From: a virus
Length of the DNA stretch: 39,671 nucleotides
Reading direction: 5' to 3' (one strand)
IMG/VR virus record: IMGVR_UViG_3300022074_000122
Span: 1-39,671 of that record
Below, piece after piece: positions 18,322 to 36,667 of the stretch; the stretch's first letter is position 1, and each line of letters begins with the position of its first letter. Both the position numbers and the translations under genes were made by a program. The notes beneath the pieces were generated by a model, which was not told where the DNA came from, made no database searches, and saw nothing but the letters and a program-made list of their open reading frames with translations.

Positions 18322-19101
18322 TTAGAAAGCGTCAACACTGTCTTTGTTTGTGTTGTCGAGGTCTTCAGCCACCGCTTTTGCCTCTCCAGATTGAATGGAC
18401 TTTCTAAATGCTATAGCAGCATCCAATGTTTCTTTGTCTTCAACAAAGCCATCGTGTTTGACAGCCCAGTTAAACCAGGTACCCATGTCATTTGACTCTT
18501 CTACAGAGGTCAAATGCCATTTAGTCCCGAACAACGGCGGACGAACAAGCTCGCCGGTCTTTGGATGCTTCATGTGCAGCATTGTTAGTTGTGTCTTCCA
18601 ACGCTTAGAAACCTTCAAACCAGAAGACTTCATGTCCACAATGCCAAATCCAGGTACACCAGAGTCATCCATGACCAAACAATAATGTTGGTCTGACTTT
18701 ACTAGCTCGTTGCCATCAGGCAGGGTTTCTGTTGATCCTGTCCTGACCGCCTTTGCAATGTCTGGGTCGTCTTTGGACATTTCACCTAAGAATCCACCGC
18801 CACTAGCTCTGGGCACGAACTTGAGATATTTAGTCTCTTGGTAACAGGGTATCACCGTGATACCTGACTCACCTTCCCACTTTTGTCCGGTGACTGTGTT
18901 GAAGATGTCCCCGTTTGAGGCACCTTCTATATATGCGGGATCACGTTTACTAAGTTGTGGCGACAACGCCTGTAGTAAACGCACAAACGGTATTTGTAAC
19001 TCGCTTGTGTCGTAATCCAGGCCCTCGCCCTCGTGTGACGAAAATACATCTAACACATCCGCAGGTAGGTTAGACTCTTTATTAGTTACTGCTTTGCTCA
19101 T
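18322..19101 (-). CDS. Putative single-stranded DNA-binding or recombination accessory protein
   Basis: A 259-aa protein with an acidic tail (EDLDNTNKDSVDAF), a feature of phage ssDNA-binding proteins such as T7 gp2.5. The body has beta-rich blocks: LQIPFVRLLQALSPQLSKRD, then YIEGASNGDIFNTVTGQKW and GITVIPCYQETKYLKFVPR, compatible with an OB-like fold. I recognise the YIEGAxxGDIxNTVTG pattern as a recurrent phage family but do not know an experimental function. It lies next to the primase in the replication operon. The start has a good Shine-Dalgarno (GAGGAAG). Another possibility is a recombinase mediator. Confidence 0.5.
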   Translation of the reverse strand: MSKAVTNKESNLPADVLDVFSSHEGEGLDYDTSELQIPFVRLLQALSPQLSKRDPAYIEGASNGDIFNTVTGQKWEGESGITVIPCYQETKYLKFVPRASGGGFLGEMSKDDPDIAKAVRTGSTETLPDGNELVKSDQHYCLVMDDSGVPGFGIVDMKSSGLKVSKRWKTQLTMLHMKHPKTGELVRPPLFGTKWHLTSVEESNDMGTWFNWAVKHDGFVEDKETLDAAIAFRKSIQSGEAKAVAEDLDNTNKDSVDAF

Positions 19102-21212: not shown

Positions 21213-21391
21213 AAAGGTGTTTACAAGTTATTAAACAGTACAAGTTTGGCAACAACACATACGAAAAAGCACTTCAAGAAATGCATTATCTTTCAGGGCT
21301 GTCGCCGTTTGTCTGCGATGCTTTCCTTAGTTACATAAAAAAGGATAATATAGTCGAGTTCCCTACCGGCGGCAGAAAGTTAGATGGCTAA
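21188..21391 (+). CDS. Small protein, unknown function
   Basis: 67 aa, starting inside the last 25 bases of the helicase gene, with a strong GAGGAGG eight bases before its ATG. It is mostly helical (VERCLQVIKQYKF, YEKALQEMHYLSGL, FVCDAFLSYIKK) with a Gly-rich end. No motif recognised. Its stop overlaps the start of the 1307-aa gene by eight bases, which suggests coupled translation. Confidence 0.6.
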   Translation: MVTTNPKVERCLQVIKQYKFGNNTYEKALQEMHYLSGLSPFVCDAFLSYIKKDNIVEFPTGGRKLDG

Positions 21392-24300
21392 ACAAAAACG
21401 CGACCCTACTGGAATCACTGGTCAAGGACTTGGTAGTTCTTTCAGTGAGTTCTTTCGGGGGCAAGGCGATGATGACAGCTACATCGAGCAACTGGGTAGA
21501 GGACTAACTAAAGTTCCCGGAAAGGCGCAAGAGTTTCTGTCACAGGATATCGGGGACATTGCTGAAGATGTCACGGACTTTGGGGTTGCTTTTGGACAAG
21601 AGGTTGCCAAACAAGCCAAAGAAAATCCATTAAAGTTTGTTGCTGAAACATTCACTCCGTATGGTTACGCTGTCTCTGCAAAAGAGACCAGGGATCTGTT
21701 AGAACAAGCAGATGCTCTGCGTGCACAAGGTCAAGTTGAACAAGCAGAGGGGCTTGAGGCACTGTCTACAGTTGCTCTGTTAGACCTAATTCCTGGCGGC
21801 CGGTTGTTCAGGAAGGCAGGAAATAGACTTGAGATTGCAGACGACATTCCTGACCAAAATAGAAATAATTTCCCTATACCAGATCGCGGATCCAGTTTTA
21901 AACCAACTAAAGAGCCATTTATACCAAAAGGCAAAATCGGTATAGACCAGCTTGAAAGCGGAATCATTGATAAACAACCCAAAAATCTAAAGGAGGCGGC
22001 TAGAAAGGCCGGTATTGCCTCGATTGTGACAGGTAAAAAGGGACAAAAGCAGATTGATCCTGAGTTGTTTAGAGAAAACATAAGGTCGTTTGACACTACA
22101 GGCGACCTTGTAGTCACGTCAAAGCCAATTAACAGAGGAACCCCAGAACATCCAAATATTGGCGGAGAAGACCCTGAAGGAACAGCCAAAAACGGTAATG
22201 CCGGTGTTGTGTCTTTCTTTAAAAGACCACCCAGTGGTGCTGCAGCCGAAGCCGATAACCTCGGTCCAAGAAGATCGGTTATACAAAATCTTATTGGACC
22301 TAGTCTAACCCAATACATAAATTCAGTTAGAGGAACAACTGCAGAGGCGCACGAGTACAATGCAAATTTTGATGCACCAATCGTCACAGAGATCCCGCCT
22401 GCCCCTATAGATGAATTGGTTGAAACCGAATTAGAGCGTTTAAAAACAAGCAACTTTGGTTTGAGCGAACAGTACGAAAATGTTGTCGGTAAGCTCCTTA
22501 ACGATGAGTTGTTTAAGAAAGAGCTTAAAAACGCGATTGGAACAAGAAGGTTTAAAGACTTTAATAAAAAAATCGCCGCAGTAAGCACAGCTTCAATAAA
22601 TCCAGCTGTGCTTATTCCATCTGACGTTACTGACAACTTTAATAGGCGAATAGTTGAATCGTTTGATGTTACAAATCCAGAGGGAATTGGCCCATCAACT
22701 GCATCAAGAGGAGACCCATTAGGACATATAAATGTAACCTTATTTAGTCGTCTTGGCATGAGTCCCGATGACATGGGCCGTTTAATGGCTTATGCAGAAC
22801 AAGAGGGACTAGATACCGTTTCAAAATCGTTAACAGACCAAATGAATTTTGTTCGGGCTATCTTAGAATCAGTGGAAAGAAATCAAAACTTACCTTTAGA
22901 TCAACAAGACATGGCAGAAACATTATCGGTATACAACGAACTAAGAGATGCTTCTAGAGATTTGATTCCGGAATATACGGCAAGTGATCTTATTGAATTA
23001 GTCGATAAGGCCAAAGAAAAATTTAAAAAACAAAAATTAGAGGTAAAAGACATTGCTCTTTCCTTAGCGAGATACACCAACAATTTTGTGTTTGACAAAA
23101 ATCTTACGTCTTCATTACGCCGAGACACTTCTTCCCCTGTGACTCCAATCCAGGCTTTGTTAGGATCAGAAGAGTTATATACAGGACCAGGCCAAGGGTT
23201 TAGTTTTCGTAGAACGGGTAAAAAGCAGCTACACAACGATTACAGACCTGGAGTGATCAGTTCGGGTTCTAATCAAAGGCTTTTTTATAACGAAAACTTT
23301 GATGACGAGATAAATGCTGCGGTAGATGATGATGGTTTTGACATCAAGGGACGAGCAGATACTGACAAGCACAGTGAAGAGTTTCTTAGACCACTAGATC
23401 CTTATGTTGAAAAACACCACGGCGGATTTAGTCGAGTTACCGATAATTTTGTACTGACAAATACTGGTGGCAGGTTTTTTACTGAAGATGATGTTGGTAA
23501 GGACCTAGAGTTTGAACAAAGCTTACTGCCAAGGGAGTTTATTTTAAATTCAAGTGGTGATGTTGATACAAGTTACATGGGAGATGTTGGACCGCAGGGA
23601 AGTGTTTTAAGAGCCAGGCATAGTTTGGAATATCAACCCGACCCACGCGGACAAGCAAAGTATGGCAGCCAACCTGAGTACGACCAAGCCAAAGTATTAT
23701 TAACAGCGGATATACCTGTACGTTTTCCAGCTACAACCTTTAAACAAAAAAGAGAAAATCTAGAAGCGTTGCAAAAAATTGCTGAAAACAAGGACGTGTT
23801 GATAAACAATCAAAATCCTACGATTAAAAATATGAAAAATAGACTGCACGTCGAAATCATACCCAAAGCTTATCGACTCGTGACATTTGGCAAAAGAGGG
23901 ACAAAAGAAAAAGCAACCAATATATCCACGTTTCAAGAAGCAAATGTACCTCTTAATGTTGGACTAGATAATGGCAACATACCTCAACAATTAGTCACAC
24001 AAAGATCAGATGTAGAAAATCTTGGAGGGGAACTGTTTGATGGTCCCACTGATCTTTACAAGGAGCTATCAGGAGGCAACATCAACAGCCAATACACAAG
24101 AGATATTAAGACTCTTTCTAAGGGCTTGGCTAAGTTTACAAAAGATTTAAAGAAACCTGTGGAAGAGCTAACTGAAACAGAGGTTGATAACTTACATCAA
24201 CAGTATTTTGATGATCTTGAGCTTTTCAATGCGTTTAAACGTGCAAATAAGCATGTTGCCAACACAACTTTACTAACAACACAGCCCAGTGGGTCACCAA

Positions 24301-25307
24301 GGTTATCGGCTTCAGAAGAGACGAAAGTGCTCAATGAATCTGCGGTCAGATACTTTATGGACGAACGTATCTTGCAAAGAGGACCTAACCAAGTACAAAG
24401 AGATCTTTTAGGTGACACCACCCCTGAAATTATTCAAAAAGCCGAAGCTGAAGATCTTTTGCTTAGTAAAGATACTAAACAAGCTGCTGATTTTAATGAG
24501 GCTTTTGATACGGTCCAGGCAAAGCGGCAAACAAGAGACGGAACAGTTCAAGAATTTGCAAGACTAAAAGAACCAAATCCAGGAGAGTCTTACTCTCCCG
24601 ATCTTTTTGGGTACATAGCGGCTAGTGATGCCCCAGAAATTTTTAGTAGATACAACGAATATCTTGGTCTCTCTGCGGGTGTTAACGAAATTTTTCCAGG
24701 ATATGTGTACGGTTCAGCCCTTACGCAACAAAAACAAATTAAGGCTGCGGTGCTTGATGCAGTTAGGACCACAGACTCACAAGCAATTAGCTCTCCCGGA
24801 GCATTCAGAGTACAACTACCGGAGTTTAATCCAAACTTACCTGCCGATGAGGTTATTAATCCACAATACAAATACATGTCGGCTGGAGCGGGCTTTTTTA
24901 ATAATCCACGTTTAATGGTTAAGTCGTCAGCTGGAAAAGAGCAGCATTATCCACAGGTTTATCCAGACATGCATCGTAATCATGTTTCAGTTGTAAAAGA
25001 CCTAAACGCTGACTTACCCTGGGCGGAAAAAGGTGAAGTGCCAGAGGGTAAACCACGTTTTTACGCTGAGATATTACCAACCGGTAATATTCCAGACAGG
25101 GGCAAGAAGACACCAGACAAAAACGAAACAATTATGTTAAGGATTAGACCAGTGATTCGTTGGGATAAAGAGGCTGGCGACTACTTTAAAACAGAGCCGT
25201 TACCTTTTAGAGATGGTGGCTTGGTCAGCTTGCCCAAGATGGCTCCTGGTCTGGAGCCTTTGCTCAGAAAGTATCGTAGAGAAGGCACTCTCTCACACTT
25301 TATTTAA
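21384..25307 (+). CDS. Giant protein of unknown function (1307 aa), possibly virion-associated
   Basis: A very long protein in one unit with the helicase. The N-terminal 150 residues have helical Ala/Gln-rich sequence (KEIRD-like segments, ALRAQGQVEQAEGLEALSTV). The middle is mixed alpha/beta with no motif I can name. The last 40 residues read PLPFRDGGLVSLPKMAPGLE then LLRKYRREG. The FxxGG(L/V)V-type ending recurs in marine phage virion proteins and resembles the GG motifs in the 237-aa and 496-aa proteins here. That points to a virion or ejected protein, although it lies away from the structural operons. The ATG overlaps the preceding gene. Its 3' end overlaps the convergent gene by 15 bases. 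Function is not assigned. Confidence 0.6.
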   Translation: MAKQKRDPTGITGQGLGSSFSEFFRGQGDDDSYIEQLGRGLTKVPGKAQEFLSQDIGDIAEDVTDFGVAFGQEVAKQAKENPLKFVAETFTPYGYAVSAKETRDLLEQADALRAQGQVEQAEGLEALSTVALLDLIPGGRLFRKAGNRLEIADDIPDQNRNNFPIPDRGSSFKPTKEPFIPKGKIGIDQLESGIIDKQPKNLKEAARKAGIASIVTGKKGQKQIDPELFRENIRSFDTTGDLVVTSKPINRGTPEHPNIGGEDPEGTAKNGNAGVVSFFKRPPSGAAAEADNLGPRRSVIQNLIGPSLTQYINSVRGTTAEAHEYNANFDAPIVTEIPPAPIDELVETELERLKTSNFGLSEQYENVVGKLLNDELFKKELKNAIGTRRFKDFNKKIAAVSTASINPAVLIPSDVTDNFNRRIVESFDVTNPEGIGPSTASRGDPLGHINVTLFSRLGMSPDDMGRLMAYAEQEGLDTVSKSLTDQMNFVRAILESVERNQNLPLDQQDMAETLSVYNELRDASRDLIPEYTASDLIELVDKAKEKFKKQKLEVKDIALSLARYTNNFVFDKNLTSSLRRDTSSPVTPIQALLGSEELYTGPGQGFSFRRTGKKQLHNDYRPGVISSGSNQRLFYNENFDDEINAAVDDDGFDIKGRADTDKHSEEFLRPLDPYVEKHHGGFSRVTDNFVLTNTGGRFFTEDDVGKDLEFEQSLLPREFILNSSGDVDTSYMGDVGPQGSVLRARHSLEYQPDPRGQAKYGSQPEYDQAKVLLTADIPVRFPATTFKQKRENLEALQKIAENKDVLINNQNPTIKNMKNRLHVEIIPKAYRLVTFGKRGTKEKATNISTFQEANVPLNVGLDNGNIPQQLVTQRSDVENLGGELFDGPTDLYKELSGGNINSQYTRDIKTLSKGLAKFTKDLKKPVEELTETEVDNLHQQYFDDLELFNAFKRANKHVANTTLLTTQPSGSPRLSASEETKVLNESAVRYFMDERILQRGPNQVQRDLLGDTTPEIIQKAEAEDLLLSKDTKQAADFNEAFDTVQAKRQTRDGTVQEFARLKEPNPGESYSPDLFGYIAASDAPEIFSRYNEYLGLSAGVNEIFPGYVYGSALTQQKQIKAAVLDAVRTTDSQAISSPGAFRVQLPEFNPNLPADEVINPQYKYMSAGAGFFNNPRLMVKSSAGKEQHYPQVYPDMHRNHVSVVKDLNADLPWAEKGEVPEGKPRFYAEILPTGNIPDRGKKTPDKNETIMLRIRPVIRWDKEAGDYFKTEPLPFRDGGLVSLPKMAPGLEPLLRKYRREGTLSHFI

Positions 25308-27734: not shown

Positions 27735-28054
27735 AGCGCATCGTACTCCTGCGGGTTTGTTGGCTCCCGAGTAGTGTAATACTCAAACGCACGGCCCTCG
27801 ACAGCATCAAAGATTTTTGAACCAACTCCGCCACATACAAACTCTTGGCATCTGGCGATGCCGTCTTGGTCAAAGTCACTGAGTTTGTTCAAGGACTCTA
27901 CCTCAACAGTTTTCAAGTGCCAGTAGTTCGGCTCGTGCGGATAGTTGCGCTCGTAGAACCATTGACACCGGACTTGATAGTAGTTGTCCTCGTCCCCTGC
28001 ATCTGGGTCACCGTAGTATTGCTCGTTAGAGGTGTAATGACCTTCATTAATCAA
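27731..28054 (-). CDS. Small protein, unknown function
   Basis: 107 aa, rich in Tyr, Asp and Glu (NEQYYGDPDAGDEDNYYQVR, CQWFYERNYPHEPNYWHLKT). The start codon is TTG, overlapping the upstream TGA; the nearby ATG is out of frame. The aromatic, acidic surface suggests a protein-interaction role, but no family is recognised. Confidence 0.55.
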   Translation of the reverse strand: MINEGHYTSNEQYYGDPDAGDEDNYYQVRCQWFYERNYPHEPNYWHLKTVEVESLNKLSDFDQDGIARCQEFVCGGVGSKIFDAVEGRAFEYYTTREPTNPQEYDAL

Positions 28055-28458
28055 AGCCTTGCCTCCAAGCTTCTGATCTCGTCGTCAATATACATACGAA
28101 CGAACTTCAGACCCAACAGCGTTGTTTGTCTGCTGAACTCCTGTGCGAACTGCTTAGACACTTCTTGCGCAGCGTGTCTCTCAGCAATTTTCGTGGCGTG
28201 ATACGCCACCTCTTCTTTTGCCTTGGCTATCACTGCGCGTTTCTCTTCCACAGATTGCGGATCCTTTGCAGCCTGTTGTATTGTTTCAATAATACGTCGG
28301 CTTGCATTTTCCTCCTGCCATGCCTTGCGGATTATGTGCGCGTATGAGTTAACACACCCCGTCGCAGCAACAATATCTTTTAGCGTTGCTTTTGGGTTTT
28401 CGTTTAAGAAAGCGATGATTTTCTGCTTTCTCTTGCCGAACCTGATTCTTTTCGCCAT
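28051..28458 (-). CDS. Helix-turn-helix protein, unknown function
   Basis: 135 aa from the ATG at 28458, which has AAAGGAG at ideal spacing; the longer reading upstream has no ribosome site. The basic N-terminus MAKRIRFGKRKQKIIAFLNE leads into NPKATLKDIVAATGCVNSYA and HIIRKAW, a winged/helix-turn-helix-like DNA-binding unit at about residues 12-50. The remainder is one long helix (EEKRAVIAKAKEEVAYHATK) that may form a coiled coil. It could be an early regulator. Confidence 0.6.
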   Translation of the reverse strand: MAKRIRFGKRKQKIIAFLNENPKATLKDIVAATGCVNSYAHIIRKAWQEENASRRIIETIQQAAKDPQSVEEKRAVIAKAKEEVAYHATKIAERHAAQEVSKQFAQEFSRQTTLLGLKFVRMYIDDEIRSLEARL

Positions 28459-28537
28459 TTTATGCTCCTTTGTTGAATCATTTGGTTTCGATCTAGTTAG
28501 ACCGACAATGCGCTCCGCAGAACGCATTGGCAGGTAA
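28459..28537. other. Intergenic stretch with two small inverted repeats
   Basis: This 79-base gap holds AATGCG/CGCATT (28507-28512 with 28523-28528) enclosing a CCGCAG core, and just after it the near-perfect palindrome CAGGTAACTACCTG (28531-28544) running into the next gene. There is no T tract, so neither looks like a terminator. The first resembles a worn copy of the hairpin elements at 30-33 kb. Confidence 0.35.
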
Positions 28538-28798
28538 CTACCTGTGACTGAACTGACCAAGACAGAAGACCAAATCACCGTTTGGCAATGTGCCCCGAAT
28601 TAATTTATACGCCGGTGTGTCTCCCTCTCTTGGGCAATACTCGTCAAGAAGGCGATAGGCCATCTCTCTTGCTTGCTTATTAAAGTCCATTTCGTAATCC
28701 ATACTCTCTACGATGGCATCCCACCCCTTTGCAAAGACCTTGATCCTTGAACCTCGGTGCGTGGTCGGGGCTAGGTATTTAGCTACGATTGCTTTCAT
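28538..28798 (-). CDS. Small protein, unknown function
   Basis: 86 aa: MKAIVAKYLAPTTHRGSRIK then VFAKGWDAIVESMDYEMDFN and AREMAYRLLDEYC. A strong GGAGG and a TAATG overlap tie it to the upstream gene. The pattern of a beta hairpin followed by a helix is familiar from small phage proteins that read like sequence-specific accessory factors, but I cannot name it. Confidence 0.6.
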   Translation of the reverse strand: MKAIVAKYLAPTTHRGSRIKVFAKGWDAIVESMDYEMDFNKQAREMAYRLLDEYCPREGDTPAYKLIRGTLPNGDLVFCLGQFSHR

Positions 28799-29200: not shown

Positions 29201-29217
29201 CTGTCCATTGTAAACAA
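29201..29217 (-). promoter_or_regulatory. Degenerate copy of the 17-bp operator-like repeat
   Basis: CTGTCCATTGTAAACAA matches the site at 32321-32337 at 14 of 17 positions. It lies 26 bases upstream of the first early minus-strand gene. A TAGTCTAA box is not clearly present behind it; AAGTCAAG at 29228-29235 is a weak match. Confidence 0.4.
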
Positions 29218-29292
29218 CTTTTAAACAAAGTCAAGTTTACATATAACACTAATTTTTTCAAAAAAAGTTTTTTGTTTTTTCCTGACAATTTG

Positions 29293-29321: not shown

Positions 29322-29467
29322 CTCTGTAGGTCAATAAATACAGTCATCTTTTTGGAACACCCTGGTTACGTTTGTTACACTTTTTATGAGGCATACTGAC
29401 TCGTTTTTGATTTTGCCTGTTAATTAAGTTAATTTTCGTCACAGAACTGTTATAGGGATTTGTGCCA

Positions 29468-30013
29468 ATGGTCGATAGAGTCGTTAAAAGAATTGAAGAA
29501 GAGACAGACCGTAATCTAACGAACAGGCAAAAAACATTTGCTCGATTGATCGTTGATGGCGTGTATACAAACACTGAATGCGCAAAACGTGCTGGTTTCT
29601 CAGCACAGACCGCAAGGATCAAAGCGTCCTGTCTTTTGAACGGTCGAGACTTTCCACACGTTGTTGAATACATCAAAGAGCTACGCCATGAACGTGAACA
29701 AAAATATGGGGTTACGTTGATCGGGCAACTGCAACGGCTGTCTGAGTTATCCAAATCTGCTGAAGAAGCGGAGCAGTTTTCAGCAGCAATCAACGCAGAA
29801 AAAATTAGGTCTGCCCTTGGTGGGTTGACTATTGACAGGCGCGAAAACATTAACCGATTAGATGACATGAGCAGGGCCGACATTCTGGCTAGATTGGCCG
29901 ATCTTCAAAAGAAGTATCCGCACGCGTTTATTGAGGGAGAGTTTAAAGATGTCACGGGGTCCAGAAGCGAACTTTTGGAATGCGATCAAAAACAAACTTC
30001 CGACAAACTGTAA
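29468..30013 (+). CDS. terS: Terminase small subunit
   Basis: 181 aa. The N-terminal DNA-binding region reads LTNRQKTFARLIVDGVYTNT then ECAKRAGFSAQTARIKASCL and LLNGRDFPHVVEYIKELR, the pattern of the Terminase_2 family with its HTH that recognises the packaging site. A central helix follows (EEAEQFSAAINAEKIRSALG), then an acidic C-terminus that in this family contacts the large subunit. I chose ATG 29468 (AGGGA nine bases before) over a GTG six bases upstream. Unusually, the large subunit is more than 5 kb away, with an accessory block between. Confidence 0.75.
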   Translation: MVDRVVKRIEEETDRNLTNRQKTFARLIVDGVYTNTECAKRAGFSAQTARIKASCLLNGRDFPHVVEYIKELRHEREQKYGVTLIGQLQRLSELSKSAEEAEQFSAAINAEKIRSALGGLTIDRRENINRLDDMSRADILARLADLQKKYPHAFIEGEFKDVTGSRSELLECDQKQTSDKL

Positions 30014-30389
30014 ACACTGGCGGGTTGAAAACCGCAACGGTAATGGGTTTCCAGACGTATATGCCGTTTTGGATGGTTTTTGTTTTTGGTTAGAACTAAA
30101 AGTAACAAAGGCTAACAAGGTTTCCTTGTCCCCTTTGCAAATCTCTTGGCATACCTCGCATGCGATCTCCGGTGGTGTTTCTTTCATCTTAGCCAAGCAC
30201 CTCGGATCGGGTGATGTATTTTTGTTCGAGGGCCAAGATGCGATAGCCGTGGCACGAAACGGTTTGAAGCATGAACCTTTGTACCGTGGCACGGTGTCCG
30301 GTGCGCTCCAGACGATTGCGCACTGCGCAGCAGTGCGCCTTTCTCCAGCCCCCAGGCAGCAGCACCAGCAAAAAATTGCGCGTTGTTGA
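29949..30389 (+). CDS. VRR-NUC / PD-(D/E)XK-type nuclease
   Basis: 146 aa from the ATG at 29949. Its nuclease core is visible: the Glu in EANFWNAIKN, then NGNGFPDVYAVLDGFCFWLE with LELKV giving the PD...ExK metal site, and SPLQISWH, the downstream Gln-containing motif of VRR-NUC nucleases. These act on flap or Holliday-type DNA junctions. It overlaps the end of the small terminase gene, which suits a role in resolving DNA before packaging. The last 25 residues or so (from about IAHCAAVRL) are read through the first hairpin element of the repeat array, so the C-terminus is probably a late extension. Confidence 0.75.
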   Translation: MSRGPEANFWNAIKNKLPTNCKHWRVENRNGNGFPDVYAVLDGFCFWLELKVTKANKVSLSPLQISWHTSHAISGGVSFILAKHLGSGDVFLFEGQDAIAVARNGLKHEPLYRGTVSGALQTIAHCAAVRLSPAPRQQHQQKIARC

Positions 30390-30490
30390 TTGCGCACTGC
30401 ACAGCAGTGCGCACCAGCCGGGAACCAGGCAGCAGCAACCTGAAAAAATTGCGCCTCGGTGATTGCGCATCGCTGCGCGATGCGCAGCAG
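30310..30490. repeat. Tandem array of three hairpin elements (period about 73 bp)
   Basis: Three copies, each GATT then a perfect stem with a 5-base loop: GCGCACTG-CGCAG-CAGTGCGC (30318-30338), GCGCACTG-CACAG-CAGTGCGC (30392-30412) and GCGCATCG-CTGCG-CGATGCGC (30465-30485). Spacing is 74 and 73 bases. Each is followed by a CAGGCAGCAGC-like tail. The third copy changes two stem pairs on both sides. The first copy lies in the nuclease reading frame. Confidence 0.85.
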
Positions 30491-30512
30491 CCGGGTAGCT
30501 GCGGCAGCAGCA

Positions 30513-30544
30513 ACAAAAAAAGGGCGACGCTTTCGCGCCGCCCT
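30513..30544 (-). terminator. Intrinsic terminator for the 30.9-kb accessory gene
   Basis: On the minus strand, stem AGGGCG with CGC pairing across a four-base loop (30521-30544, one mismatch), then seven T. It follows the stop codon by about 20 bases. Confidence 0.8.
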
Positions 30545-30563
30545 CCTTCGAGGTCGGTCGGGG

Positions 30564-30938
30564 TTACCACCAACAAGAGTAGATGACCTTGTTTCCTTGT
30601 TCGAGTTCAGCCTTTGCCCATTCAATGAAGGCAATGTCTTGGTCTTTGTATTCCTCTTCGGACTCGTCTTGGAACTGATGCCCGTAGAAAAAACCGCCTT
30701 GACTCCTCGGCATCTGGTTGGTTTGCATCTTTCGTTCGAGTTCAGCAATGTCCACCACATCGAGTTCAAGCTGTCCGCAGTTAAGCTCGACAGCAGATAG
30801 GCTAGTTTTTTCGACGAACTTTTGTTCCATGAATTCCTGCAGTTTGGCGTGTTTACGCCAAACGAATTGATGCTCGTGTCCCTCTGCGTTTTCTTCTTCT
30901 TCGCGTTCCCGCGCCCAAGCGTATTGATCGAGTCCCAT
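30564..30938 (-). CDS. Widespread phage accessory protein (MGLDQYAW family)
   Basis: 124 aa. The start MGLDQYAWARERE, the middle HQFVWRKHAKLQEFMEQKFV, then AELERKM, GGFFYGHQF and the end AKAELEQGNKVIYSCWW are hallmarks of a small family found in many phages and sometimes labelled phosphoglycerate kinase by mistake; nothing in it resembles that enzyme. Function is unknown. It forms its own transcription unit, with operator-like repeat, leader hairpin, GGAG site and terminator, and is the last of four such units. Confidence 0.7.
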   Translation of the reverse strand: MGLDQYAWAREREEEENAEGHEHQFVWRKHAKLQEFMEQKFVEKTSLSAVELNCGQLELDVVDIAELERKMQTNQMPRSQGGFFYGHQFQDESEEEYKDQDIAFIEWAKAELEQGNKVIYSCWW

Positions 30939-30961
30939 GACTGTCTCCTATTTTTATTAAA

Positions 30962-30979
30962 CGTGGCAAAAGCACCACG
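30962..30979 (-). promoter_or_regulatory. Leader hairpin of accessory unit 4
   Basis: CGTGG (30962-30966) pairs with CCACG (30975-30979) across an eight-base loop. It lies between the 17-bp operator-like repeat and the ribosome site of the 124-aa gene, the same place as leader hairpins in the other three units. Confidence 0.5.
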
Positions 30980-30997
30980 GTCAAAGTGTCTCATAAC

Positions 30998-31030
30998 TTG
31001 TTCACTTTAAACAATAATACTATAGTCTAA
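30998..31030 (-). promoter_or_regulatory. Promoter/operator module of accessory unit 4
   Basis: Reading the minus strand: TTAGACTA box (31030-31023), eight bases, then the 17-bp inverted repeat TTGTTTAAAGTGAACAA (31014-30998). The spacer reads TAGTATTA, a possible -10. No -35 at standard distance is seen. Confidence 0.6.
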
Positions 31031-31140
31031 TTGCGCTTCGACGATTGCGTCTTGCTTCGCAAGACGCACGGAACCAGGCAGCAGCTTCGGATTGCGTTTC
31101 GACGATTGCGGTTCGCTGCGCGAACCGCACTAGCTGTCCA
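31031..31140. repeat. Two hairpin elements upstream of accessory unit 4
   Basis: TGCGTCTTGC-TTC-GCAAGACGCA (31046-31068) and GCGGTTCG-CTGCG-CGAACCGC (31108-31128). Each is preceded by TTGCG..TTCGACGATT, and the first is followed by GAACCAGGCAGCAGC. They fill the gap between the next unit's terminator and the TTAGACTA box. Confidence 0.85.
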
Positions 31141-31152
31141 GGCGGCTGACAT

Positions 31153-31179
31153 AAAAAAAGGGCGGCCCGAAGACCGCCC
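31153..31179 (-). terminator. Intrinsic terminator with UUCG loop, accessory unit 3
   Basis: On the minus strand GGGCGG..CTTCGG..CCGCCC (31160-31179), followed by seven T. It is about 13 bases after the stop of the 83-aa gene. Confidence 0.9.
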
Positions 31180-31191
31180 ATGAGGGAAAGA

Positions 31192-31443
31192 TTATTGTGC
31201 AAAAGGAATATGCTTTCTAAGCTGCACATCTTCTATCAACAATTGTTGGTCTCTTGGATGCTCTTCTTTCAGCCTTTCCATGGCGTGCTGATATGCTTCT
31301 GCGGCTGACTTGATGCCGTAAAGGGTGAAGCAATCATAGTCTACCCACTCGTTGCCGACGCGTGTCTGCAGGTTAAAAGTTGCGCTCTCGTTCCATTCGA
31401 TACGGACACGATATCCATTGTTCCAGGTTCTCCAGTATTTCAT
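31192..31443 (-). CDS. Small accessory protein, unknown function
   Basis: 83 aa: MKYWRTWNNGYRVRIEWNES, DYDCFTLYGIKSAAEAYQHA, then MERLKEEHPR. A beta-rich front with many Trp and Tyr and a helical back suggest a small alpha/beta domain. The start overlaps the upstream stop (ATGA), so it is the second gene of a two-gene unit that ends in a UUCG terminator. No family recognised. Confidence 0.6.
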   Translation of the reverse strand: MKYWRTWNNGYRVRIEWNESATFNLQTRVGNEWVDYDCFTLYGIKSAAEAYQHAMERLKEEHPRDQQLLIEDVQLRKHIPFAQ

Positions 31444-31733
31444 TTGGCTGCCTCCGCAGTTTTTTGAGTTTGAAGAAACTCAATAGCTTTTTTTAGAACA
31501 TTCGGAACGTTTTCACTGTCTCGAAACTTTGCTACAAACTTTGAGTAATAGTGCCCATCGGGACTTATTTTGTTAGAGGTATAAAAGAGTTTACTCAACT
31601 CCCCAAACTTTGGACTCCATGTAAACTTATGGTCTTCATGTTCTCCGCCTGGTTTCTTAATAGTTATCACAAGGTTACGGTTATCGTGTCCTCTGTCATA
31701 CTCTTTGTCGTATTTAATTGATTGTATGAACAT
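31440..31733 (-). CDS. Small accessory protein, unknown function
   Basis: 97 aa, basic: MFIQSIKYDKEYDRGHDNRN, LVITIKKPGGEHEDHKFTWS, then a helical end KKAIEFLQTQKTAEAAK. GAGGGA lies before the ATG. It leads the two-gene accessory unit; its leader contains a 20-bp perfect palindrome. No family recognised. Confidence 0.6.
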   Translation of the reverse strand: MFIQSIKYDKEYDRGHDNRNLVITIKKPGGEHEDHKFTWSPKFGELSKLFYTSNKISPDGHYYSKFVAKFRDSENVPNVLKKAIEFLQTQKTAEAAK

Positions 31734-31758
31734 TTGATTCCCTCATGTTATTGGTTGG

Positions 31759-31778
31759 TGGTGCTTCGCGAAGCACCA
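31759..31778 (-). promoter_or_regulatory. Leader palindrome of accessory unit 3
   Basis: A perfect 20-bp palindrome TGGTGCTTCGCGAAGCACCA between the operator-like repeat and the ribosome site of the 97-aa gene. It can fold as a leader hairpin or be a protein site. Confidence 0.55.
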
Positions 31779-31795
31779 GGTACTACACTACAGTA

Positions 31796-31828
31796 TTGTT
31801 TAAAGTACACAATACTACCTTAGTCTAA
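31796..31828 (-). promoter_or_regulatory. Promoter/operator module of accessory unit 3
   Basis: Minus strand: TTAGACTA (31828-31821), eight bases AGGTAGTA, then TTGTGTACTTTAAACAA (31812-31796). Same order and spacing as at 30998-31030. Confidence 0.6.
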
Positions 31829-31955
31829 TTGCGCTTCGACGATTGCGCCTTGCTTCGCAAGGCGCAGCAGCCAGGATTTCTTCGTAAGCCAGGCAGTGCG
31901 CTTCGACGAGTGCGGTTCGCTGCGCGAACCGCTGCAGCCAGGAACCAGGCAACTC
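31829..31955. repeat. Two hairpin elements upstream of accessory unit 3
   Basis: TGCGCCTTGC-TTC-GCAAGGCGCA (31844-31866) and GCGGTTCG-CTGCG-CGAACCGC (31912-31932). The first matches the element at 31046-31068 except for one stem pair changed on both sides (T-A to C-G). Both follow GCGCTTCGACGA and are trailed by CCAGGC-type sequence. Confidence 0.85.
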
Positions 31956-31958
31956 AAA

Positions 31959-31985
31959 TAAAAAAGGGGCATCCGAAGATGCCCC
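31959..31985 (-). terminator. Intrinsic terminator with UUCG loop, accessory unit 2
   Basis: On the minus strand GGGGCATC-TTCG-GATGCCCC (31966-31985) followed by T residues. It lies about 20 bases after the 87-aa gene's stop. Confidence 0.9.
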
Positions 31986-32003
31986 TGTTCTTGGGAGAAC
32001 CCC

Positions 32004-32267
32004 TTACTCACTTTCGTGTTCTTTTGGTAGTTTATCAACCAGGATTTGAATATTGGTGACTGCATAGTATAACAAGCCGCGAGCATCAAGAGCGACACCG
32101 TGCTCATACCAATCAGCCAGTCCCCACTCGATAGTCTTTTCAGCTAACTCGGAAATGGTGATTAAAGCTTCTTCAAGATCCTCTCTCGAAGTCTTGGCCT
32201 CGATCACACTTTCTTCCATGTCTGAATAGAGTTCGTTTACTGGTTGTGCTTTTTTGAATGATTCCAT
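32004..32267 (-). CDS. Small acidic helical accessory protein
   Basis: 87 aa from the ATG at 32267, which has GGGAG nine bases upstream. An in-frame ATG at 32288 lies inside the leader hairpin and is less likely. It reads MESFKKAQPVNELYSDMEES, then REDLEEALITISELAEKTIE and GLLYYAVTNIQILVDKLP, nearly all helical. No family recognised. Single gene in its unit, with its own promoter-like module and terminator. Confidence 0.6.
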   Translation of the reverse strand: MESFKKAQPVNELYSDMEESVIEAKTSREDLEEALITISELAEKTIEWGLADWYEHGVALDARGLLYYAVTNIQILVDKLPKEHESE

Positions 32268-32286
32268 AATCTTATTCTCCCAATTC

Positions 32287-32302
32287 ATGGCAACATCGCC
32301 AT
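32287..32302 (-). promoter_or_regulatory. Leader hairpin of accessory unit 2
   Basis: ATGGC (32287-32291) pairs with GCCAT (32298-32302) across six bases, between operator-like repeat and ribosome site. Confidence 0.5.
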
Positions 32303-32320
32303 AGTTCTAACTATACTAGG

Positions 32321-32353
32321 TTGTGCATAGTAAACAACTAGACATTAGTCTAA
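32321..32353 (-). promoter_or_regulatory. Promoter/operator module of accessory unit 2
   Basis: Minus strand: TTAGACTA (32353-32346), eight bases ATGTCTAG, then TTGTTTACTATGCACAA (32337-32321). Same architecture as the two modules at 30998 and 31796. Confidence 0.6.
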
Positions 32354-32360
32354 TATACAT

Positions 32361-32435
32361 GGTGCAGCGCACAATTGCGCACCAAAAGAGTGCGTTTCGC
32401 TGCGCGAAACGCTTTAACCAGGCGCAGCAGCTGGG
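32361..32435. repeat. Hairpin elements upstream of accessory unit 2
   Basis: GCGTTTCG-CTGCG-CGAAACGC (32392-32412) is one pair different from the GCGGTTCG type, changed on both arms. Beside it a weaker inverted repeat GGTGC/GCACC (32361-32365 with 32379-32383) encloses GCGC repeats. The tail CCAGGCGCAGCAGC follows. Confidence 0.8.
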
Positions 32436-32437
32436 CA

Positions 32438-32466
32438 TAAAAAAAGGGGCAGCCGAAGCTGCCCCC
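32438..32466 (-). terminator. Intrinsic terminator with UUCG loop, accessory unit 1
   Basis: On the minus strand GGGGCAGC-TTCG-GCTGCCCC (32446-32465), followed by a T tract. It follows the 141-aa gene's stop by about 15 bases. Confidence 0.9.
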
Positions 32467-32479
32467 GTGGGGAGAACTA

Positions 32480-32905
32480 TCACTCTTGATCGGGTTCCCA
32501 ATTCCGAACAAACTCGCGTAGCCTCTCGGCATCCGCGCTTATCTCGTCTTCCATCTCGTCCGCAACTTCGGTGGCTAACCGCTCGACTGTTTCTGACAGC
32601 ATGGTCATCATCGCAAATTTTTGCTCTCGCGTTGCATTCGATGAATCAAAATTAACCAGACGATCTAAAGCAGGGTTGCCGCTGACCTGACCCGTGTGCT
32701 GATCAGCCCAAAGTTCTTTGGTTGTTCCTGTCGGAAAACCCAGGATCTGATCATACCGCGAGTACAAAGTATCGAGGTATTGTTCGCGTGTAACGCCTGT
32801 ACTTGTAGCACCGTTGGTTGGATCCAGAGCAGACTCGCGCAAAGCACGCGCCAACTCTTCAGGATTCATAACGCCATTAAAAAAGGCTCTGTCTAAATTT
32901 GGCAT
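32480..32905 (-). CDS. Accessory protein, unknown function
   Basis: 141 aa, acidic and mostly helical: FFNGVMNPEELARALRESAL, REQYLDTLYSRYDQILGFPT, FAMMTMLSETVERLATEVAD and a Glu/Asp-rich end. The GGGGAGAG ribosome site is strong. No motif recognised. It is the first of the four accessory units in minus-strand order, with the operator-like module upstream and a UUCG terminator downstream. Confidence 0.6.
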   Translation of the reverse strand: MPNLDRAFFNGVMNPEELARALRESALDPTNGATSTGVTREQYLDTLYSRYDQILGFPTGTTKELWADQHTGQVSGNPALDRLVNFDSSNATREQKFAMMTMLSETVERLATEVADEMEDEISADAERLREFVRNWEPDQE

Positions 32906-32926
32906 GGTATCTCTCCCCAGTTACCG

Positions 32927-32942
32927 GTGGCGGTATTGCCAC
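32927..32942 (-). promoter_or_regulatory. Leader hairpin of accessory unit 1
   Basis: GTGGC (32927-32931) pairs with GCCAC (32938-32942) across six bases, upstream of the ribosome site of the 141-aa gene. It matches the RTGGC/GCCAY shape in unit 2. Confidence 0.5.
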
Positions 32943-32962
32943 ATCCCAGATTGTCTCATACC

Positions 32963-33006
32963 TTGTGCACTATGAACAACCCCTATGGTCTTATACTTTA
33001 GTCTAA
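32963..33006 (-). promoter_or_regulatory. Promoter/operator module of accessory unit 1 (long spacer)
   Basis: Minus strand: TTAGACTA (33006-32999), then 19 bases instead of 8, then TTGTTCATAGTGCACAA (32979-32963). The extra 11 bases equal about one DNA turn, so the two parts keep the same face. The spacer contains AGTATAAG, a possible -10. Confidence 0.55.
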
Positions 33007-33021
33007 TGCGGATCGCCGAGT

Positions 33022-33042
33022 GCGGTTCGCGCAGCGAACCGC
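33022..33042. repeat. Hairpin element upstream of accessory unit 1
   Basis: GCGGTTCG-CGCAG-CGAACCGC. The stem equals those at 31108 and 31912, but the loop is CGCAG, the reverse complement of CTGCG, as if the loop were inverted. Confidence 0.8.
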
Positions 33043-33101
33043 TATACCCCTACGGGGGTTACTTGGGGTAAACCTATACAACAACGGTAACAACAGAAGG
33101 G

Positions 33102-33240: not shown

Positions 33241-33672
33241 ATGCCCATGCGAATTCATTTGAACCTCCCAGGTGCGCCGTTAGTGGAGAACACTTTGTTT
33301 CTGATGGCGCAGTCTGACACGCACCGTTTTTACAATGACCGTGATATTGAGAGATTGATCCTTGCACCTAGGGACTATGACAAGTTGTTGGTTGCTTATG
33401 ATGATCAAGCCAACCCGATTGGTTTTAGTACGCATGCGTTTTTATCTTCTGAAGCGGAGGAGGGTTACCTGACTCGGAGCAGGAAGCTGCAACCGATGGA
33501 TTTTGAAGGAGAAGATGGTACTCTATGGTGCATAGACTTCGCTGCCCCGTTTGGAGACTGTGTTCATGTTATGCGGGTGATGCGGAACTGGTGTAATGAG
33601 CGGTATGGTCCTGGGATGAAGGCTAGGATATACCGGAGCCTTAGAAACCACATAGGGTGTTTGGTCATATGA
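33241..33672 (+). CDS. HlyC-family (RTX toxin-activating) lysine acyltransferase-like protein
   Basis: 143 aa from the ATG at 33241 (an ATG two codons in and an upstream TTG are alternatives). It follows the HlyC pattern: LFLMAQSDTHRFYNDRDIER with His28 at the place of catalytic HlyC His23, then LVAYDDQANPIGFSTHAFLS, then TLWCIDFAAPFGDCVHVMRV with Asp99 at the place of HlyC Asp92 (71 versus 69 residues apart). HlyC-type enzymes move fatty acids from acyl carrier protein to lysines of RTX toxins. No RTX protein is visible, so the target may be a virion protein. It opens the late operon and overlaps the next gene (ATGA). Confidence 0.75.
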   Translation: MPMRIHLNLPGAPLVENTLFLMAQSDTHRFYNDRDIERLILAPRDYDKLLVAYDDQANPIGFSTHAFLSSEAEEGYLTRSRKLQPMDFEGEDGTLWCIDFAAPFGDCVHVMRVMRNWCNERYGPGMKARIYRSLRNHIGCLVI

Positions 33673-35201
33673 TTCACGATCCTTGTATGTTCCCCCAACT
33701 AAGAAGTGACAAGCGAAAGAGTGACGATTGGTTCCTTGTTCGCATGGGCTGTTTTAATGGTGACCCTGACGGAGAAGGTTCTGGAAAAGGCGGCGCAAGT
33801 GATCTTGGTGATGCAGGAGAGGCGATAGCCTCTGACGCAGACTCAGCGTTAGGTTTTGAAGATGATGAAGCCGCTGATTATCAAGATCGTGTAGACGAAG
33901 CCATGAAACAGACTCGTGATCGAGGTGATGATACGGACGAGATTGAAGATTATTTTGATAGAACTGAGGTTGTAGACAGACGTGCCCCCATAGACATTCC
34001 AAGAATACAAGGTATTCCAGACATCGACTTTGACGAAGAGTCTGACAGAAACGAAAGCCCTTTAAATTTTGCCGGGGACCCTCGAAATTTCCCAGGAGGA
34101 GAAAGGGACCTGCAGCAAAGGAACCGTGAGTTTGAAGAGGCAGTCGAGAGACAAATACAAGCAGACCGAAAGGCAAGAGCAGTTGGTGCTGACGGCCCTG
34201 ATCCCGTGGATATTTTTGATTCTTACGATCCTGATGAACCAGAAGGCGGTGCAGGATCGTTGACGGCCCTTCGCCCAGACCTGGCTCGTGATCCTTCTCG
34301 TCCCCCAGTTAGTATTGTTCCTGCAGCTACAACTCCAGCAGAGCAAATAATAGCTGAAGCTCGTGGTAAACAAAGAACATCTGATCAAACAGCACAAAGT
34401 ATAGCTGAAGCTGCCCCCACCCCTGAAGGGGTTCAAGAGGATGTGCCGTTCTCTATCAGAACAATGCGGGGTCCCACGTTTTCGCCAGATCCAGAGGAAT
34501 TTCAACAGTTTGACGAAACAGACTATTTAGATTTAGGAAAAATTGGACCGGCACCTCCAAAAGGGGAGGAAGACAACAGAGCGTCGGACAGTCTTGTTGA
34601 ACGAAGAGAAAGAGGCATTGCTGCTGCAAGAGCGGCTGCGGCCCAAAACCCTTTGGCACAATCTCCAGATCTTAAAGGAATACAGATTGGAGACGTTAAT
34701 ATTCCGTTAGGTCCTGCAGGAATGGTGGCTCAGGGTATCGCTACTGTAGGTACAGACATTTACAATACTTTTGCAAATCCCACAGCAAAAACCATCGATA
34801 ATATTCAGAACAAAGGCCACGGTGCGGTGTACGGTGCCGAAGGAAACCTGATTGGCTCTGTTGATCCAGACACTGGTGCTGTTCAGGCGACAGAGGGCAA
34901 CGCTTTTAACCCTGAACTAGAGCCTTACTTTGCTGAGTATAGGGAGCGACAAGAAAGAGGTCGTGGTGATAACGTTGCTCAACCTATATTACCTCTTGCG
35001 GGACAAGAACCAGTGCCCGTGGCCCCCGAATCTTACATTGGACAACCGATTGTACAGCCATATCAGTACACGCCGGCCCCACCAGTGCAGTTTTCGTACA
35101 CTGGAATACCAACTTTGGCCCCGACAATGTTAAAACCGACGTTTCAGGCGCAAGAATCATTCTCGCCGTTGTTTAATTTAGGCCAAACAAGGCGTAGTTA
35201 G
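33669..35201 (+). CDS. Acidic, low-complexity virion-type protein, unknown function
   Basis: 510 aa from an ATG overlapping the acyltransferase stop; a GTG four codons upstream and an ATG at 33744 (MGCFNGDPDGEGSG) are other possible starts. Much of it is disordered, rich in Asp, Glu, Pro and Arg (DDEAADYQDRVDEAMKQTRD, PLNFAGDPRNFPGGERDLQQ), and the end is Pro/Gln/Tyr-rich (VAPESYIGQPIVQPYQYTPA). A more ordered block near 335-420 includes IPLGPAGMVAQGIATVGTDI. It lies between acyltransferase and large terminase, so a scaffold-like or ejected virion role is possible but unproven. Confidence 0.5.
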   Translation: MIHDPCMFPQLRSDKRKSDDWFLVRMGCFNGDPDGEGSGKGGASDLGDAGEAIASDADSALGFEDDEAADYQDRVDEAMKQTRDRGDDTDEIEDYFDRTEVVDRRAPIDIPRIQGIPDIDFDEESDRNESPLNFAGDPRNFPGGERDLQQRNREFEEAVERQIQADRKARAVGADGPDPVDIFDSYDPDEPEGGAGSLTALRPDLARDPSRPPVSIVPAATTPAEQIIAEARGKQRTSDQTAQSIAEAAPTPEGVQEDVPFSIRTMRGPTFSPDPEEFQQFDETDYLDLGKIGPAPPKGEEDNRASDSLVERRERGIAAARAAAAQNPLAQSPDLKGIQIGDVNIPLGPAGMVAQGIATVGTDIYNTFANPTAKTIDNIQNKGHGAVYGAEGNLIGSVDPDTGAVQATEGNAFNPELEPYFAEYRERQERGRGDNVAQPILPLAGQEPVPVAPESYIGQPIVQPYQYTPAPPVQFSYTGIPTLAPTMLKPTFQAQESFSPLFNLGQTRRS

Positions 35202-36667
35202 TGTCCTTGGCCCTCGATTCTTTGCCTGATGAGGTCTTGAAAGAGGTTTTAGCCCTCAAAGAGGCGAAAATTAGGCTTGATACACGCGAAAAAGCGCAAA
35301 ATCAGTTTATGCCTTTCGTTCATCATGTCTATGATGGCTTTATAGAGGGTCGTCATCACCGAATTATTGCTGAAAAGCTCGAAAAAATAGCAACTGGGGA
35401 GCTAAAACGGCTGATTGTAAACATGCCGCCCCGTCATTCCAAGTCAGAATTCGCTTCTTACCTCATGCCAGCGTGGTTTTTGGGGCGAAACCCTAAATTA
35501 AAGATTATTCAAGCAACCCATAACACGGAATTAGCGGTCAGATTCGGTCGTAAGGTCCGTAATTTGATAGAAACGGAGAGTTATTATGAAATCTTCCCAG
35601 AAACCAGGCTCAAAACGGACGACAAAGCGGCAGGACGCTGGGGCACCGAAGCAGGAGGCGAATATTTCGCAGCAGGAGTCGGTGCAGCCGTCACCGGTCG
35701 GGGAGCCGACCTCTTCATCATTGATGACCCACATTCGGAACAGGATGCCCTTAGTGAAGGAGCGTTTGACAACGCTTACGAGTGGTATACGTCAGGTCCT
35801 CGCCAACGTTTACAACCGGGTGGCGCGATTATTCTCGTAATGACGCGCTGGGGGACGAAAGATCTTACTGGCAGACTGCTAAAAGCACAGTCTAACGACA
35901 TTATGTCAGATCAGTGGGAAATTGTGGAGTTCCCAGCCATTATGCCGTCAGATAAACCGCTCTGGCCTGAGTTTTGGAGCACTGACGACTTATTAAAAGT
36001 TAAATCTGCACTACCCGTTGCTAAATGGAACGCACAGTGGCAGCAACAACCAACTGCTGCAGAGGGTGCCATTGTAAAACGTGAGTGGTGGCAACCCTGG
36101 GAGAAAGAAGATGTACCGCCGGTCAAATACATCATGCAATCGTATGACACAGCGTTCTCGAAGAAGGAGACAGCGGATTACTCAGCAATCACGACGTGGG
36201 GCGTATTTCAGCCAGAAGAGGGAGGAGCAGACCACATCATCTTGCTCGATGCCCGACGAGGACGATATAACTTCCCGGAATTAAAAGAAGTTGCTTTAGA
36301 AGAATACGATTACTGGGAGCCTGATATGGTCATTATCGAAGCCAAGGCAACTGGTACGCCGTTAACGGATGAGTTACGCAGGACGGGTATACCGGTCCTA
36401 AATTATACACCCGGTAAAGGTCGTGATAAAGTGACTCGCATGCACACCGTTGCACCAATCTTTGAAGCTGGGATGGTTTGGGCACCAGATAAAAAGTTTG
36501 CAGACGAAGTGATCGAAGAATGTGCCGCCTTTCCCAATGGTGACCATGATGACTTTGTAGACAGTATGACTATGGCTCTGATTCGTTTTCGCCAAGGTGG
36601 GTTTCTCTCGCTGGAGGGTGACGAAGATGAAGAGATGTATGTACCAAGGAATAGAGAGTATTACTGA
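35201..36667 (+). CDS. terL: Terminase large subunit
   Basis: 488 aa, the ATPase-nuclease that pumps DNA into the capsid. The ATPase half has Walker A IVNMPPRHSKSEF (about 75-82) and Walker B DLFIIDDPHSE (Asp175, Asp176), with the coupling motif VMTRWGTKDLTG. The C-terminal nuclease half has the acidic residues in QSYDTAFSKKETADYSAITT, VIIEAKATGTPL and GDHDDFVDSMTMAL. Start is GTG, overlapping the upstream stop (TAGTG). It is followed by the portal gene with a one-base overlap, the standard terL-portal order. Confidence 0.95.
   Translation: MSLALDSLPDEVLKEVLALKEAKIRLDTREKAQNQFMPFVHHVYDGFIEGRHHRIIAEKLEKIATGELKRLIVNMPPRHSKSEFASYLMPAWFLGRNPKLKIIQATHNTELAVRFGRKVRNLIETESYYEIFPETRLKTDDKAAGRWGTEAGGEYFAAGVGAAVTGRGADLFIIDDPHSEQDALSEGAFDNAYEWYTSGPRQRLQPGGAIILVMTRWGTKDLTGRLLKAQSNDIMSDQWEIVEFPAIMPSDKPLWPEFWSTDDLLKVKSALPVAKWNAQWQQQPTAAEGAIVKREWWQPWEKEDVPPVKYIMQSYDTAFSKKETADYSAITTWGVFQPEEGGADHIILLDARRGRYNFPELKEVALEEYDYWEPDMVIIEAKATGTPLTDELRRTGIPVLNYTPGKGRDKVTRMHTVAPIFEAGMVWAPDKKFADEVIEECAAFPNGDHDDFVDSMTMALIRFRQGGFLSLEGDEDEEMYVPRNREYY

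Follow-up and report, generated by a model that had tools for sequence, protein, structure and literature searches.

PeSL (promoter early stem-loop) cassettes were reportedly described by Arbiol et al. in 2010 (GBE 2:140) and by Comeau et al. in 2014 (GBE 6:1611). They are mobile regulatory cassettes of T4-type phages (PMC4503421, PMC3950731), while the ESAS of cluster K mycobacteriophages comprise a SigA-like promoter and an imperfect inverted repeat of 15-17 bp before several small genes, with a consensus that varies by subcluster and a proposed role as the site of a DNA-binding protein (PMC3203893, PMC11373665). We analysed the whole of IMG/VR virus record IMGVR_UViG_3300022074_000122 (39,671 bp, hereafter the window), in which four minus-strand units of small genes at 30.5-33.05 kb carry hairpin elements, a palindromic putative operator and terminators. 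These units probably constitute an accessory island of separately transcribed, commonly regulated and recombining early morons, a reading in which promoter activity, the regulator, the timing and the use of the hairpins in recombination are the parts that we infer.

Like PeSL cassettes, the window has a repeated predicted promoter and stem-loop between small accessory genes, in a variable region with modular shuffling between related phages. The T4-type lineage and early-promoter sequence are not found, the nearest isolates being HTVC023P-type podoviruses, and the island would therefore work like PeSL without being a member; it would carry the PeSL concept beyond T4-like phages into a podovirus-like lineage. 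Also unlike PeSL, its hairpins form a covarying family separate from the terminators, the operator palindrome lies within the predicted promoter, and the block is antisense beside terS. With ESAS the window shares an inverted repeat in a predicted SigA-like promoter before several genes. ESAS differ, in the sections of their description used here, in standing before scattered genes of temperate phages together with a 13-bp start-associated sequence, and those sections contain no hairpin-bounded cassettes with their own terminators; our repeat search of the units found no common 13-mer, and leaders and ribosome sites differ between units. Judged by lineage and sequence, the island belongs to neither system. 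Phage morons resemble the units in being small genes with their own (here predicted) promoter and own terminator, present or absent between close relatives, but are usually single insertions, whereas the window holds a stack with one control sequence and one slot. We found no description in the open-licence literature of a covarying hairpin family combined with a shared operator and a fixed antisense address by terS, and the HTVC023P-type genome paper (PMC9599517) makes no mention of promoters, terminators, hairpins or cassettes.

The large terminase protein (TerL) of the window is ~58-60% identical to those of Pelagibacter phages HTVC023P and HTVC027P and ~62% identical to those of phages 023Pt_psg01 and DSL-LC04, and nearer TerL proteins are encoded on many marine viral contigs. 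The window represents a marine podovirus-like phage, kin of the HTVC023P-type pelagiphages. HTVC027P relies on host RNA polymerase, and RNA-seq during its infection sorted most genes into three temporal classes, with two extra clusters formed by gp33 and gp34 (early to middle) and by gp30 (early and late) (PMC12753301). All three genes are on the minus strand between terS and terL, so that the HTVC027P slot resembles that of the window in its small minus-strand genes, which are timed apart from the main classes; gp33 and gp34 are preceded by TTGACA-like promoters beside GCTTG repeats. The slot differs in its genes, its repeats, the absence of hairpin elements and the other strand for terS, and gp33, 45% identical to a slot gene of another relative (L010:3795-4397), has no counterpart in the window. 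By analogy, the HTVC027P expression data support separate transcription in the slot, though not the details of the window. The HTVC027P region L087:5900-7350 also has GCTTGNGGCTTGNAG-type repeats at 14-nt spacing between minus-strand slot genes, a third kind of repeat in an equivalent slot.

Anatomy of the antisense block

The units lie between a plus-strand pair (terS and a resolvase-like gene) and the plus-strand genes before terL, and so form an antisense island within the packaging row. An earlier note on this DNA had listed for each unit a hairpin element, a box, a palindrome, a leader hairpin, one or two genes and a terminator, and all of these are present on the minus strand in that order. 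Where it counted four hairpin elements there are nine, with two each in units 3 and 4 and three more that are gene-less and lie beyond the downstream end of unit 4 (30303-30487). The layout is common to the units in its parts but not in its spacing, the distance from box start to palindrome being 16 in units 2-4 and 27 in unit 1. A UUCG loop was claimed for three of the four terminators, and T1, T2 and T3 indeed have TTCG, with GAAA in T4 from sequence reading.

33007..33042, minus: E1 hairpin element (stem-loop 33022-33042, tail to 33007)
32963..33006, minus: unit 1 control region, with the TTAGACTA box at 32999-33006 and, at 32963-32979, the operator palindrome (left half = predicted -35)
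32950-32955, minus: unit 1 predicted -10, GACAAT
32927..32942, minus: unit 1 leader hairpin GTGGC..GCCAC (from sequence; weak z-score)
32480..32905, minus: g1, 141 aa; comes first in every hairpin-type relative and is mosaic in its 3' part
32438..32466, minus: terminator T1, TTCG loop
32377..32412, minus: E2 hairpin element (stem-loop 32392-32412); place of the chimeric junction in L007 and L009
32321..32353, minus: unit 2 control region, with its box at 32346-32353, its operator at 32321-32337 and a predicted -10, TATAGT, at 32310-32315
32286..32301, minus: unit 2 leader hairpin ATGGC..GCCAT (from sequence)
32004..32267, minus: g2, 87 aa; known from no other phage, its unit missing from L007 and L009
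31959..31986, minus: terminator T2, TTCG loop
31897..31932, minus: E3 hairpin element
31830..31865, minus: E4 hairpin element
31796..31828, minus: unit 3 control region (box 31821-31828; operator 31796-31812)
31760..31777, minus: unit 3 leader hairpin GGTGCTTCGCGAAGCACC (from sequence)
31440..31733, minus: g3, 97 aa; absent in L006/L009
31192..31443, minus: g3b, 83 aa; member of a family with 49 loci, common in marine phages
31153..31179, minus: terminator T3, TTCG loop
31093..31128, minus: E5 hairpin element
31032..31067, minus: E6 hairpin element
30998..31030, minus: unit 4 control region, with its box at 31023-31030, its operator at 30998-31014 and a predicted -10, GACACT, at 30985-30990
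30962..30979, minus: unit 4 leader hairpin CGTGG..CCACG (from sequence)
30564..30938, minus: g4, 124 aa; of the MGLDxY type, a family with 53 loci that is widespread among marine phages
30513..30543, minus: terminator T4, GAAA loop (sequence reading)
30450-30485, 30377-30412 and 30303-30338, minus: gene-less hairpin elements E7, E8 and E9

A terminator was thus found for every unit (T4 by eye), and promoters are predicted from the conserved layout. The cargo genes gave only weak matches or families lacking an assigned function in Pfam and PHROGs, the structure prediction for g1 was of low confidence (pLDDT 64), Rfam returned no match, and blastn with 11-base words found no DNA match in a phage collection.

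Gain and loss of units among relatives

Comparison with related contigs confirms that genes and whole units are gained and lost at this slot, as the earlier note had proposed; the outcome named there as contrary, relatives always carrying the same four genes, did not occur. L007 and L009 have terL genes 94.7% and 94.8% identical to that of the window at the DNA level and 99.2% identical to each other, yet differ in the gene content of the block. Both are without unit 2, and their junction is a single hairpin with the left flank of window E2 and the right flank of window E3. L006 and L009, which are one contig, are without g3, the leader being fused to the next gene at the start codon, and carry a 67-aa gene flanked by two TTCG terminators, while L007 has an extra gene (g3c) after g3b, whose homologue in the 50.7-kb relative G001 has its own predicted promoter. 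Unit 2, g3, the 67-aa gene and g3c accordingly vary among the window, L006/L009 and L007, as is typical of morons. In g1, the 3' part has been swapped, in one case between L007 and L009 and in another between G001 and L097. G001 itself has five operator-bearing units, and has only g1 and g4 in common with the window.

Breakpoints had been expected inside the hairpins. This holds for one junction, the E2/E3 chimera; the others comprise two insertions bounded by terminators (L006/L009, G001) and one event at a start codon (L006/L009), and so the hairpins appear to be one recombination node among several. Further out, the terL tree places L010, L011, L012, L016 and L019 nearer to the window than G001, although L010, L016 and L019 have none of the window's cassette genes, their slot being filled by a different set of small minus-strand genes, which come with different leader hairpins and with CGCAGGGT-type repeats. 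The slot and its style are therefore common to relatives, while cargo, repeats and operator change.

We propose that homologous recombination between alike flanking parts (hairpins, terminators, leaders) would gain, lose or swap units and genes, so that new cargo would land behind a ready-made switch and leave the packaging genes undisturbed. Such a fixed loading address behind a common switch would indicate where to look for host-takeover and anti-defence genes.

Elsewhere, the other marine phages L164, L165 (5000-6500), L166, L167, L168 and L180 have a homologue of g3b that stands behind a TTGACA promoter of its own, together with a GGGATA-N4-GGGATT-type repeat and with CCCGAACAATTGTTCG hairpins close by; in L165 a terS-like gene stands just ahead of these hairpins. 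The L165-type locus looks like a parallel accessory slot with different repeats.

Hairpin elements and the adjacent nuclease

A scan of the whole 39.7 kb for GC-rich perfect hairpins (stem of 9 or more, loop of 3-5) returned the nine elements, all at 30.3-33.05 kb, and one terminator, against 0.05 expected. Their geometry is fixed (GCG, 4 bp, GC, a 3-nt loop and the mirrored arm), each has behind it a ~15-nt tail that terminates in CGCA, and all share one orientation relative to the genes. In 21 distinct copies from the window and its relatives, 98.4% of pair cells are standard pairs, two-sided changes occur in 34 cells compared with 8.3 in shuffles, four pairs vary on both sides, and the covariation score is 0.50 versus 0.13. 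L005, the same phage as the window over 6.4 kb, differs from it at six of 6357 positions; three are single changes, and the other three are the E1 loop bases (33031-33033), which are exactly inverted and make up the sole multi-base difference. Cruciform processing or template switching is what would leave such an inversion in a perfect hairpin. Mis-assembly at the short E1 palindrome is unlikely. L009 carries the E1 loop of L005.

Several searches bear on the origin of the elements. No copy of the 21-mer hairpin tail occurs in 84,980 cellular genomes, although divergent copies would escape this search, and box plus operator gave one match there against ~7 expected by chance on our own estimate; a host repeat or prophage source is therefore not supported. 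The multicopy occurrence in bacterial genomes that defines REP and REP-like elements was likewise not seen in the 84,980 genomes. Viral contigs outside the clade yielded single matches to the hairpin-tail patterns, at about chance level, and the exact hairpin geometry is absent from other marine phage loci (1.74 Mb scanned).

The array adjoins a nuclease gene within the packaging row:

29462-30013, plus: terS, overlapping the nuclease gene
29949..30389, plus: Hjc/RecU-like, Holliday-junction-resolvase-type nuclease gene, overlapping terS
35201-36667, plus: terL

The nuclease gene takes its final codons from E9 and E8. Its product is confidently modelled (AlphaFold, pLDDT 88) with a PD-(D/E)XK fold of resolvase topology, of Hjc/RecU type; the best Foldseek matches are nearly all Hjc or RecU, and the PD-(D/E)XK residues D36, E49 and K51 are invariant. 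In other lineages the 3' end of this gene enters other repeats (CGCAGGGT-type in L010 and L016, GSG-type in L043 and L077).

A first alternative to homologous recombination makes the hairpins the active agent, with extruded cruciforms or single-strand hairpins cut by the adjacent nuclease and thereby serving as directed hot spots of exchange. The resolvase-type fold next to the array, the exact loop inversion between near-identical genomes, the strong stem covariation, the restriction of the elements to the block in a single orientation and the chimeric junction would all fit. However, stems of 9 bp are on the short side for extrusion as cruciforms, template switching in replication could invert the loop as well, and several junctions lie outside hairpins. 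Because relatives that lack these hairpins have the nuclease gene just the same, its link to them is suggestive only. We consider the alternative unlikely. We are just as doubtful of a bolder reading, a dedicated loading island in which clade-specific, oriented, covarying 21-nt cruciforms processed by the adjacent nuclease act as exchange joints for pre-switched genes and a lineage-specific operator adds each loaded gene to the early regulon. The E1 loop inversion and the adjacent resolvase-like gene nevertheless pose a testable question, whether structured DNA joints direct modular exchange in phages.

Control regions and a probable shared regulator

The box TTAGACTA occurs at 33006, 32353, 31828 and 31030, with one further, unrelated copy at 22308, and the mismatch-free 17-bp palindrome TTGT-N9-ACAA at 32963, 32321, 31796 and 30998; each of 100 shuffled windows held at most three palindrome matches even with one mismatch allowed. 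The composite TTAGACTA-N(8-19)-TTGT-N9-ACAA is found exactly four times in the window, all within the block (0.003 expected), compared with no match to the reversed control pattern in the same record. The box is half of a 16-bp palindrome, TTAGACTNNAGTCTAA (TTAGACT-NN-AGTCTAA), which G001 unit 3 has in full and L098, L010, L011 and L019 have nearly so. The start of the box precedes the operator by 16 or 17 bp; in unit 1 of the window, L007, L009 and L098 the interval is 27 bp, longer by one helical turn. The operator half-site reads TTGT-N-Y-A around a 3-bp centre, and the same control layout precedes different genes in the five G001 units, L007, L006/L009, L097 and L098.

Promoter activity of the units is predicted from this layout. 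The left operator arm matches a -35, and -10-like forms follow 16-18 bp from the left half-site, namely GATAAT (L007 unit 1), GACAAT (unit 1 of the window and G001) and, in G001, GATTAT and GATACT, often with TG one base upstream; the predicted transcription start coincides with the leader hairpin. Each unit would accordingly have a host sigma-70-type promoter with the 17-bp palindromic operator over its -35 and spacer, and with a second palindromic box (TTAGACT/AGTCTAA) directly upstream. The transcript of a unit would open with the small 5' hairpin, cover one small gene or two, and stop at the unit's own terminator.

It could be argued, instead, that the units are a duplicated regulatory segment placed by chance before genes, with no common regulator and a palindrome that is only the host's core promoter. 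Over 71 nt, the stretch made up of E4 and the control region of unit 3 is in fact 86% identical to its counterpart of E6 and the unit 4 control region, like recent duplicates, and no regulator emerged from the one helix-turn-helix (HTH) candidate. Against this, only the left arm can act as -35, yet TTGT and ACAA are invariant in all 13 operators of the window, L007, L098 and G001; the right arm ACAA falls in the spacer, a part of a promoter in which no particular bases are required. The inner bases vary while the outer arms stay fixed across diverged lineages (terL 79% identical), and the half-site recurs in another arrangement at the early promoter:

29211..29228, minus: early-operon promoter direct repeat TTGTTTA-N4-TTGTTTA, half-site as in the unit operators

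We consider chance duplication unlikely, slightly more so than nuclease-driven exchange.

The repeat, as TTGTTYA-N4-TTGTTTA, lies in the promoter of the early cluster beyond terS in both the window (29228) and G001 (32776), and in the window overlaps the region's best sigma-70 match, TTGACT-16-TACAAT; in the L010 lineage, TTAGACTA is present at the first unit and at the early promoter. An operator-like site at 18365 of G001 is within a gene and was taken as chance. Since operator half-sites are common to units and early promoter, a shared regulator is probable: a single DNA-binding protein, most simply a repressor and possibly a host protein, would act through the common operator on every unit and probably on the main early operon as well. 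The claim that all units answer to one regulator gains from the shared operator, but the candidate for that role did not hold, as the HTH protein at 28051-28578 was rejected because it was not found in G001, which has the same operator.

Several observations weigh against the island of commonly regulated, recombining units. The one HTH candidate of the window failed as regulator and no other was found; a plain sigma-70 scan did not pick the unit promoters, and units 2 and 3 have poor -10 boxes. By folding energy alone the leader hairpins stand out only weakly, with z between -0.1 and -1.9 across the four units of the window, only one junction lies clearly in a hairpin, only five independent relatives have part or all of this type of block, and the RNA-seq support for separate transcripts comes solely from HTVC027P, a distant cultured relative.

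The weakest alternative, that the hairpins serve the packaging genes (as a pac-type site or as bidirectional insulation against plus-strand terS transcripts) with the gene units as passengers, draws on their place between terS and terL in the window and G001, on the convergent genes and on the three gene-less hairpins beside the terS/nuclease pair, but is improbable: an essential pac role is at odds with relatives that lack the elements although their TerL protein is 93% identical, and the elements have no T run on the plus-strand side, so that they are not standard terminators, and recur at unit boundaries, not just at the edge.

Among other genes of the window, the plus-strand gene at 21384-25307 encodes a 1307-aa protein that has similarity in G001 at its two ends only (34-36%) and no match in PHROG or Pfam. 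The plus-strand gene at 33217-33672 matches PF02794 (HlyC-type acyltransferase family, E 8e-13) and is conserved beside the slot in relatives, and the low-complexity gene that follows it before terL (33657-35201) diverges very fast, with 45-58% identity between phages whose TerL is 98% identical.

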